Shown piece after piece: positions 42,421-55,299 of a DNA stretch of 64,000 nt. This DNA is from Thermoplasmatales archaeon BRNA1. GTDB taxonomy: Archaea; Thermoplasmatota; Thermoplasmata; Methanomassiliicoccales; Methanomethylophilaceae. The translations under genes and the position numbers were made by a program. The notes beneath the pieces were generated by a model, which saw only the letters and a program-made list of their open reading frames with translations, had not been told where the DNA came from and made no database searches. The stretch is taken from assembly GCA_000350305.1 (NCBI GenBank), contig CP002916.1, forward strand, positions 1 through 64,000, given 5' to 3'. Each line of letters opens with the position of its first letter. Position 1 is the first letter of the stretch.

Positions 42421-42954
42421 ATGCCGCTCATCGCCATCACCGGGACCCCGGGAACGGGGAAGACGTCCGTGTCCGGGGAACTCAGGGACAGGGGATACGA
42501 GGTGGTGGACGCCAACGAGCACCTGAGGAAACACGGGCTCCTCGGCGAGAAGGACGAGGCCCGTGACACGTACAACGTCGACATGGAGGCGTTCAACTCT
42601 TCCCTGGAGGAGTATCGGAGAAAGGACGGATTGGTGTTCATAGATTCCCATCTGGCACACCAGTGCGACTGTTCCCGCATCATCGTCCTGAGGTGCGAGC
42701 CCCACGAGCTCGCCGGCAGGCTCAGGAAGAGGGGATACTCCGAGGCCAAGGTCAGGGAGAATGTGCAGGCGGAGGTACTGGACGTAATCCTCTGCGAGGC
42801 CATGGATACCGACATCCCCGTCAACGAGATCAACTGCACGGGGGGCACCCCCTTCGAGGCGGTGGATTTAATACTGCGCATACTTACAGTAGACCCGGAA
42901 CTTTGCCCGCCGGGAAACACAGACTGGTCCGGGGAGATGGAAGAATGGTTCTAG
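42421..42954 (+). CDS. AK6/Fap7-like adenylate kinase (COG1936)
   Basis: P-loop NMP kinase implicated in 30S ribosome maturation (177 residues). Walker A is TGTPGTGKTS at the N terminus; the Asp motif (FIDSHLAHQ) and lid (RLRKRGYSEAKVRENVQAE) are conserved. It ends in TAG, the only terminal TAG I found in the window, overlapping the next gene (ATGGTTCTAG). The ending TDWSGEMEEWF looks like a natural C terminus, so TAG probably stops here. Readthrough would add roughly 45 residues of out-of-frame sequence. Confidence 0.9.
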   Translation: MPLIAITGTPGTGKTSVSGELRDRGYEVVDANEHLRKHGLLGEKDEARDTYNVDMEAFNSSLEEYRRKDGLVFIDSHLAHQCDCSRIIVLRCEPHELAGRLRKRGYSEAKVRENVQAEVLDVILCEAMDTDIPVNEINCTGGTPFEAVDLILRILTVDPELCPPGNTDWSGEMEEWF

Positions 42955-43610
42955 ACAAGCACAGAAAGGAAGCGGATTTCACCATCGCGCCCGTCGCGAG
43001 GAGACTCATCAACGTCAATCCCAACGTCATCTCCTGGCTGGGGCTCATCGTCGCATTCCTCAGCGGTGTCGCGCTGTACTTCAGCTTCGACCACCACTGG
43101 ATGCTGATCCTCGCTTCCGGTCTCGTCATCCTCTCCGGATACTTCGACGCTCTCGACGGGAAGATCGCGAAGCTCGCCAATAAGTGCTCCGTCAAGGGAG
43201 ACTTCCTCGACCATGTCTTCGACCGTTATGCGGACATGTTCATGATCGCGGCCATCGCCCTCAGCGGTTGGTGCGATGACATCATCGGGATCTTCGCGAT
43301 CATCGGTGTCCTTCTCACCTCCTATATGGGGACCCAGGCCCAGGCCATCGGCGCCAAGAGGCTGTACGACGGTCTGCTCGGAAGGGCCGACAGGGTCGTC
43401 CTCTGCTTCCTGTTCCCTCTCATCCAGTACCTGGCATGCTACCTCGACTACGGATGGATTGACCCCGACAACCTGGCAATCAGCTGGCTCGCGGTCATGA
43501 TGATCTGGTTCGCCGTCGTCGGCAACCTCACCGCCATCCAGAGGGTCATCATCACCTGGAGGAACCTGGGAGAGGCCGAGAAGGAAGAGGAGAAGAAGGA
43601 TCAGGACTGA
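42945..43610 (+). CDS. CDP-alcohol phosphatidyltransferase (archaetidyl-type)
   Basis: Membrane enzyme joining CDP-archaeol to an alcohol such as inositol phosphate, glycerol phosphate or serine (221 residues, about six helices). The catalytic motif DALDGKIAKLANKCSVKGDFLDHVFD keeps all acidic positions; the AR pair reads AK. The best guess is archaetidylinositol phosphate or archaetidylglycerol phosphate synthase. It overlaps AK6 by 10 bases and convergent priL by 10 bases. Confidence 0.88.
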   Translation: MVLDKHRKEADFTIAPVARRLINVNPNVISWLGLIVAFLSGVALYFSFDHHWMLILASGLVILSGYFDALDGKIAKLANKCSVKGDFLDHVFDRYADMFMIAAIALSGWCDDIIGIFAIIGVLLTSYMGTQAQAIGAKRLYDGLLGRADRVVLCFLFPLIQYLACYLDYGWIDPDNLAISWLAVMMIWFAVVGNLTAIQRVIITWRNLGEAEKEEEKKDQD

Positions 43611-44641
43611 TCCCTGGGCCCGAGACCGTGTCCGCTTTTCACCCTGTAGTAGTTCAGCGGATGCTTGATGTGCTCGCAGAGACTGTCGGGATTGAAGCAT
43701 ATTCCGTTGGTCTTCATGGTCCCGCACTCGGGAGGGGTGTACCCCTCGGTGCCGTTCAGCTCCCCGGTTATGTGCTTGATCTGATACTCCGAGACGGACT
43801 CGTCGAAGTCGGGGGACTGGGCGAAGACCGCCACAATCTGCTCGTAGGTCATGCCGAGGGCATGCAGGAACGACACCAGCGCGAACCTTGCGCTGTGGGG
43901 CAGGTTCTAGCCGGCTGCCGCCATCGATATGATGGCCTTGATGCAGGGCGGCAGGTACTCGTCCTTGACCCCCTCCCCGCCCGTGGGGCTGAGCCTGTTC
44001 TTCATCTCGTTGAGAGCGAGCTGGACCTTGGAGACGTCCTGGGAAACGATCTTCCTGAAGCTGTCTGGCACATTCAGCGGAAGTTCCGCCTCGATGCGCG
44101 AGCGGTAGGCGTTCTGCAGAAGCCTGGTGAACTTTTCCTTCTCCAGCCTGACATATCCGTCGCGGAGGTCCATGTTGATGAGCTTCCATTCGACGGCCCT
44201 CATGACGTACGAGAAGCGCAGGAAGTCCGCGAAGTGCATGTTCACGGTGCCGTCCTGGTTCGGAGAGGCGTTGATCTCCAGCTCCGCGGAGATCATCGGG
44301 ATGGCCTCTTTGTCCTTGCCCAGGAGCATGTTCATACGCTCCGCCTCGGCAAGGGCGTACCTCTTGGTGAGGAGGCGGTCGTTGATGCAGGACACGATGA
44401 TTCTGGCGTAAGGGTAGGAGAGTACCTCCATCAGGCGATTGTAGTCCTGGGCGGCCCCGTTGAGGACCACATCGGGGACTTCGTGGCCGCTTATGGCACC
44501 GAGCACCCTCTGCATCCCCCTCTCCCTCGCGGCAGCGTAGCTCTGGGAGGATAGAAGTTCCTCGATGCCGCCGGAGTTCTGGGATGCGAACTCCGCCGCA
44601 TCCCTGAGGAAAGGGTACCTAGCTGCGCGGAGGCTGTCCAT
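43601..44641 (-). CDS. priL: DNA primase large subunit PriL with an in-frame TAG
   Basis: Iron-sulfur subunit of archaeal primase. The frame runs from ATG 44641 to TGA 43601 and is broken only by TAG at 43909-43907 (codon 245 of 346). Sequence on both sides is conserved PriL: YLPPCIKAI before, NLPHSARFAL and GYTPPECGTMKTNGICF after. Of the four Fe-S cysteines, one (Cys233) lies before the TAG and three (about 306, 315, 322) after it. Termination would destroy an essential protein. The simplest reading is that TAG is translated, most likely as pyrrolysine. Confidence 0.9.
43907..43909 (-). other. in-frame TAG in priL, predicted pyrrolysine codon
   Basis: It sits between AAAG and NLPHSARF, where other PriL proteins have one ordinary, usually polar, residue. 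There is no frameshift and no nearby restart, and coding continues for 101 codons. Confidence 0.75.
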
Positions 44642-54534: not shown

Positions 54535-55299
54535 TCAGTGTTTCCTCTCGGCAGGATACATCTCGTAATAGTCGACGTGGTAGTATCTGCAGAAGAACTT
54601 GGCCATGACCTTGCCGAACCACCACAGCTGGTGGAAGGTCATGATGGGGACCTTGGGACTGATGTGGGACACGCCCTCGGTGCGGACCCCGAAATCGTAG
54701 CGGATGTACGAGACCTTCACGCGCCTGTCGGAGTACTTCATGAGGTCCATGAGGACCTTCCATCCCTTGTACTCGAACCTGTCCCAGCAGCCGGCAATCA
54801 CCGGCCTGAAGACTTCACATCTGAGGGCGAACAGGCCGGACATGAAGTCCTTGGTGGTCTGTTTGCCGTGAAGGCGGAAGAACAGTTTGTTGAAATTCTC
54901 CACAGCCGAGGATCCGAGCGCTCTCTTGCGGCCCATGGACATCCTGCTGTTCCTCACACCGACGCAGACGTCAGCCCCCTTGTCCATCTCGGCGATGAGG
55001 TCACCGATGGCGGATACGGGATGCTGGAAGTCGCAGTCCATGCTCATGGTGTAGTCGGTGTCGGAGAGGTAGAATCCCTCCATGATGGAGGCGGCCAATC
55101 CCCTCTCCTATTCCCTGACGAATATGGATGTGAGGGGGTCTCCGAGGTTCCTGACGAGGTCGATGGTACCGTCGGTGGAACCGTCGTCCATGAAGAGGAT
55201 CTTGACATCTGGGTAGGACTGCCTGATGGCCTTGGCCATAGGGATAACGTTGCCCGCCTCGTTGTAGGTCGGGATGACTACCGTCATCGTACCCGTCAT
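54535..55299 (-). CDS. family 2 glycosyltransferase (DPM1-like) with an in-frame TAG
   Basis: Cytoplasmic GT2 resembling dolichol-phosphate mannosyltransferases (254 residues). It starts at ATG 55299 behind an aggagag ribosome site. TVVIPTYNEAGNV and FMDDGSTDGT are before the TAG at 55110-55108 (codon 64). ERGLAASIMEGF, the metal-binding MDCDFQHP (Asp88/Asp90) and the acceptor part are after it. Neither half could work alone, and frame and conserved spacing are kept across the TAG. It is probably translated through as pyrrolysine. Confidence 0.85.
55108..55110 (-). other. in-frame TAG in a GT2 gene, predicted pyrrolysine codon
   Basis: It lies between FVRE and ERGLAAS, a loop where GT2 enzymes carry variable, often charged, residues before the conserved GL-x-A motif. 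Confidence 0.7.

Follow-up and report, generated by a model that had tools for sequence, protein, structure and literature searches.

The window analysed here is the whole 64,000-nucleotide stretch at positions 1 to 64,000 of contig CP002916.1 of the Thermoplasmatales archaeon BRNA1, whose genome is a single contig of 1,461,105 bases. BRNA1, a methanogen of the order Methanomassiliicoccales, is a bovine rumen archaeon of 1.46 Mb and 58% G+C with a Cdc6 gene, TALC00001 (PMC5011839). The ORF at the start of the window, read by eye, resembles cdc6, and the G+C content of the 464 kb of genome sampled below is 58%. Sequence comparison gives Methanomethylophilus, Methanoplasma and Methanomassiliicoccaceae MAGs as its named relatives. 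The locus of interest carries an adenylate-kinase-like gene and, on the other strand, the gene for the large subunit of DNA primase, priL:

42421-42954, plus strand: adenylate-kinase-like gene; its apparently true TAG end, 42952-42954, overlaps the start of the next gene
43601-44641, minus strand: priL, DNA primase large subunit, 346 codons with the TAG counted as a residue (profile and alignment); start ATG at 44641, in-frame TAG at 43909-43907, terminal TGA at 43603-43601
43910-44641, minus strand: PriL residues 1-244, before the TAG, with the first Fe-S cysteine, C233
43907-43909, minus strand: the in-frame TAG, residue 245 of PriL (codon alignment and AlphaFold2 model)
43604-43906, minus strand: PriL residues 246-346, after the TAG, with three of the four Fe-S cysteines

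Coding sequence on both sides of the TAG

An earlier note on this DNA, made from the letters alone, had described a single in-frame TAG in priL with frame and spacing kept; its coordinates are right, and the gene lies on the minus strand. Read through the TAG, the product scores 108 bits against Pfam PF04104, over the cut-off, and 352 bits over residues 1-335 against the NCBIfam PriL equivalog NF002588, which is below that model's cut-off of 439. The piece ending at the TAG scores 28 and 209 bits, respectively. Reading frame, spacing and family-invariant residues are retained on either side, and conserved sequence continues in frame beyond the single TAG, as is expected of the gene for a pyrrolysine protein. 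The Fe-S cysteines C233, C306, C315 and C322 are invariant in an alignment of 22 sequences; C233 precedes the TAG and the other three follow it, just as the note had read them. The possibility of a second intact priL, raised in the same note, is answered by a profile search of the whole 1.46 Mb genome, in which no second copy was found and priL is the sole PF04104 match. The primase small subunit gene is intact at 1453626-1454342.

Compared with its nearest relative in our set (L035), the part of PriL after the TAG has 88% identity (dN 0.07, dS 1.57) and the part before it 68% (dN 0.28, dS 1.26). At 34 post-TAG columns that are invariant among the relatives, BRNA1 shows no departure. Judged from these substitution rates, the part of priL after the TAG is under strong purifying selection. 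A very recent TAG would leave the same downstream conservation, so that this conservation supports the function of the gene and is by itself no proof of decoding.

The protein could conceivably be made in two pieces, residues 1-244 ending at the UAG and a GTG start at codon 256 giving the C-terminal Fe-S part, and an ORF with this start is indeed present at 43876-43601. Such a division would split the Fe-S ligands 1+3 and would lose residues 246-255, including the invariant N246, L247, H249, R252 and F253. No relative with a complete gene has it split, and we consider this arrangement highly improbable.

Codon 245 in relatives and in the structural model

The earlier note had proposed aligning priL from related genomes, and the alignment shows that the TAG is not conserved: the equivalent codon is CAG in most members of the genus and ATG, GTG or CTG in other relatives. 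In the 22-row alignment the column of residue 245 holds M in 8 relatives, Q in 6, V in 5, and I and E in one each, between the invariant G244 on one side and N246, L247, H249 and R252, with F253 also invariant, on the other. No other priL gene has the TAG, either among the 115 genomes of the order or among the 95 of the family in which priL was matched; one of the relatives with a priL free of TAG is a genome of 1.94 Mb (G019). By contrast, almost all full-length copies of the methyltransferase gene mtmB in the order have its TAG. As pylS scores over its cut-off in nine of nine other genus members searched, the relatives' codons and the order-wide absence of the TAG point to a lineage-specific C-to-T change in priL in a long-standing pyrrolysine-decoding background. 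Conservation of the TAG among orthologues, by which a functionally conserved pyrrolysine site is recognized, is not seen in priL.

Two other apparent interruptions of priL were rejected. A TGA in genome G108 is the terminal stop of that gene, and two TAA codons in genome G121 lie beyond a truncated frame of 209 amino acids, and past the first stop no homology is seen. The priL-like frame of G121 (L143, on C105) stops at residue 209 near the contig end and may be a truncated PriL or a misassembly.

The AlphaFold2 model of PriL (mean pLDDT 87.9, pTM 0.77), for which the top Foldseek matches are archaeal and eukaryotic PriL, places residue 245 in a loop between helices 232-242 and 249-261. In a profile alignment to human p58 (5f0q), it stands opposite the first His of the segment HHLRHGGR, which presumably contributes to binding of the RNA primer at its 5' end. 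Pyrrolysine 245 might on this account have a role of its own, for it would sit in the loop just before the invariant residues aligned with this segment, and either the reactive ring or the supply of this residue could alter priming; we judge this very unlikely. No Rfam match to a PYLIS element was found at priL, and a published account treats these elements as optional (PMC4153887). The variable site, the absence of the TAG elsewhere and the lack of a recognizable insertion element together fit a pattern of tolerated drift.

TAG usage and the pyrrolysine system of the genome

Stop-codon usage was sampled in 464 kb, the window and 20 stretches of 20 kb, or 32% of the genome, with gene ends taken from a simple coding-potential gene call. 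The 420 complete gene ends comprise 387 TGA (92.1%), 24 TAA (5.7%) and 9 TAG (2.1%), and TAG makes up 20% of the stop triplets in the six frames of the same sample. Seven of the nine called TAG ends are internal, lying in mttB, mtbB, one mtmB, priL and the genes for PPK2, an ABC transporter ATPase and a family 2 glycosyltransferase (GT2), and in all seven the family models extend across the TAG. A second mtmB also has one TAG. A coding signal follows directly after the stop at 6 of the 9 TAG ends vs 11 of 230 TGA or TAA ends (Fisher p 4e-6), and these 11 look like abutting or antisense genes. Only two TAG ends appear to be true ones, that of the adenylate-kinase-like gene at 42952 and that of a gene at 321615. 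An amber codon has been reported in the adenylate kinase gene of ISO4-H5 (PMC5011839).

The four in-frame TAGs of the sample that lie outside methyltransferase genes are those of priL and of three further genes:

54538-55287, minus strand: GT2, family 2 glycosyltransferase; TAG at 55110-55108, residue 60
L065:4501-5892 (genome position 525176): PPK2, two-domain, with the TAG between the domains at residue 226
L069:7121-7915 (genome position 807240): ABC transporter ATPase; TAG 39 codons before the end

All the internal stops accepted in the comparison of priL, PPK2, GT2 and ABC ATPase genes are TAG. The three other genes show a pattern like that of priL. PPK2 has its TAG at residue 226 in BRNA1; two congeners carry theirs near residue 110 and near residue 84. 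At the ABC ATPase site relatives mostly have GAG or GAA (Glu). In GT2, five genomes have a TAG, at one of two sites. The window gene and genome G027 share it at residue 60; in G056, G074 and G088 it is codon 24, which in some relatives reads CAG or CAA. GT2 is a recurrent pyrrolysine target, more so than priL. A predicted pyrrolysine protein of 'Ca. Methanomethylophilus alvus', AGI84833, is of the DPM-synthase/GT2 type (PMC4153887) and is possibly the orthologue of the window GT2.

The TAG in priL might also have arisen as an error in sequencing, or be a polymorphism peculiar to the sequenced strain, the usual codon of the gene being CAG. The collections searched hold a single genome of the species, and the CAG of the nearest relatives is a single transition away. 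Errors should yield all three stops, however, and alongside the four non-methyltransferase TAGs no comparable interruption by TGA or TAA was found in the 464 kb; independent genomes, moreover, have TAG in the same other genes (PPK2 and GT2). An error or polymorphism is therefore unlikely.

The genome has the means to read UAG. The earlier note had suggested looking for pylT, pylS and pylBCD, and all are present. pylS, pylC and pylD are consecutive on the minus strand from about 991550 to 988657, all over their curated cut-offs (pylS, TIGR02367, 262 bits vs a cut-off of 178), and the gene for RamA, the methylamine methyltransferase activator, comes next. Directly upstream of pylS, at 991643-991573, lies pylT, 71 nt long with a CUA anticodon loop and a 3' CCA; it was located by the sequence motif of the anticodon loop, ARAGORN having given no pylT call in this genome. 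pylB, also over its cut-off, is apart from the others at 442315-443328 and completes the set of a pyrrolysine-decoding genome. Beside pylS stand two mtmB, one mtbB and one mttB, each with one TAG, as is usual in such genomes, and Rfam PYLIS_2 and PYLIS_3 are matched in mtbB and mttB. In genus g9, mtmB-like genes without TAG occur at G114:C2:3122-4498, G111:C101:8608-9966 and G089:C59:5968-7074; other mtmB copies within the same three genomes do have it.

With a complete pyrrolysine system, no second priL and TAG scarce as a stop, pyrrolysine in PriL is the best reading. Near-cognate suppression, with some other amino acid inserted at the UAG, is hardly credible: relatives have CAG for Gln at the site and UAG is near-cognate to tRNA-Gln, yet the genome encodes a dedicated amber tRNA together with the synthetase that charges it. 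The UAG of priL could also act as a control point at which the supply of pyrrolysine sets the amount of primase, given that PriL would require charged tRNA-Pyl and that the pyl genes adjoin those for methylamine methyltransferases. Against this, no other pyl-bearing genome searched has a TAG in priL, the site is variable and carries no recognized insertion element, and the scarcity of TAG ends suggests constant decoding; the chance of such control seems to us very slight. Thus the earlier proposal of pyrrolysine in the replication machinery is supported, as a tolerated residue, and its suggested link of primase output to pyrrolysine supply is not, the site being variable (Q, M, V, I, E) and the TAG unique.

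We conclude that priL is very probably intact and functional, with pyrrolysine at position 245 after a lineage-specific, near-neutral change of CAG to TAG made harmless by amber decoding. Codon 245 would have changed by one transition; the UAG would be read by tRNA-Pyl charged by PylS, giving full-length PriL with pyrrolysine in a loop, at a site that in relatives accommodates Gln, Met, Val and other residues. Efficient amber decoding would render the TAG harmless and leave it to near-neutral drift in this lineage, and synthesis of an essential replication protein would come to hang on the pyl genes. We infer from sequence that the UAG is actually decoded, that the residue is pyrrolysine and that the change was neutral. 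PriL very likely needs the pyl system, and DNA replication of BRNA1 probably depends on it.

Significance and comparison with known pyrrolysine proteins

If the decoding is real, the genome cannot be replicated without an optional amino acid that otherwise belongs to methylamine use, and loss of the pyl genes would be lethal on any substrate. It would clearly exemplify how drift, by reaching an essential gene, can lock in a genetic-code expansion. There is a practical side as well, as gene callers cut such essential genes short at the TAG. A 2025 paper in Science reportedly describes an archaeal code that reads every TAG codon as pyrrolysine; if so, the priL case is less novel.

Pyrrolysine has reportedly been found in a housekeeping enzyme before, Heinemann et al. 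in 2009 being said to have ascribed its presence in tRNA-His guanylyltransferase to neutral evolution and to have tested this by experiment. The BRNA1 case is alike in being a housekeeping enzyme and in being put down to drift, and differs in gene and organism. With MtmB, MtbB and MttB, whose TAG is decoded as pyrrolysine in the same genome, the likeness ends at the codon: mtmB has a conserved TAG throughout the order and the pyrrolysine of the methyltransferases is catalytic, whereas the TAG of priL is unique and at a variable site.

Closer parallels lie within the order. In ISO4-H5, a close relative with TAG in housekeeping genes, 46 genes have in-frame amber codons (PMC5011839). For M. alvus, the paper of Borrel et al. 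(2014; PMC4153887) predicts 16 lineage-specific pyrrolysine proteins besides the methyltransferases and holds that TAG mutations of this kind are stably maintained and can render the pyl cassette indispensable. The principle that essential proteins may come to depend on pyrrolysine was thus already put forward in 2014 (PMC4153887). M. alvus and BRNA1 belong to one order and have the same pyl system; in both, TAG interrupts the frame of ordinary conserved genes whose homologues elsewhere lack it, and TAG is very rare as a stop. M. alvus is another species, and in the available part of the same paper priL is absent among the entries of Table 7 and its PriL (AGI84820) is given as an ordinary replication protein (PMC4153887). 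Lineage-specific pyrrolysine proteins are therefore already described in this order, and priL of BRNA1 is a new and striking predicted case among them.
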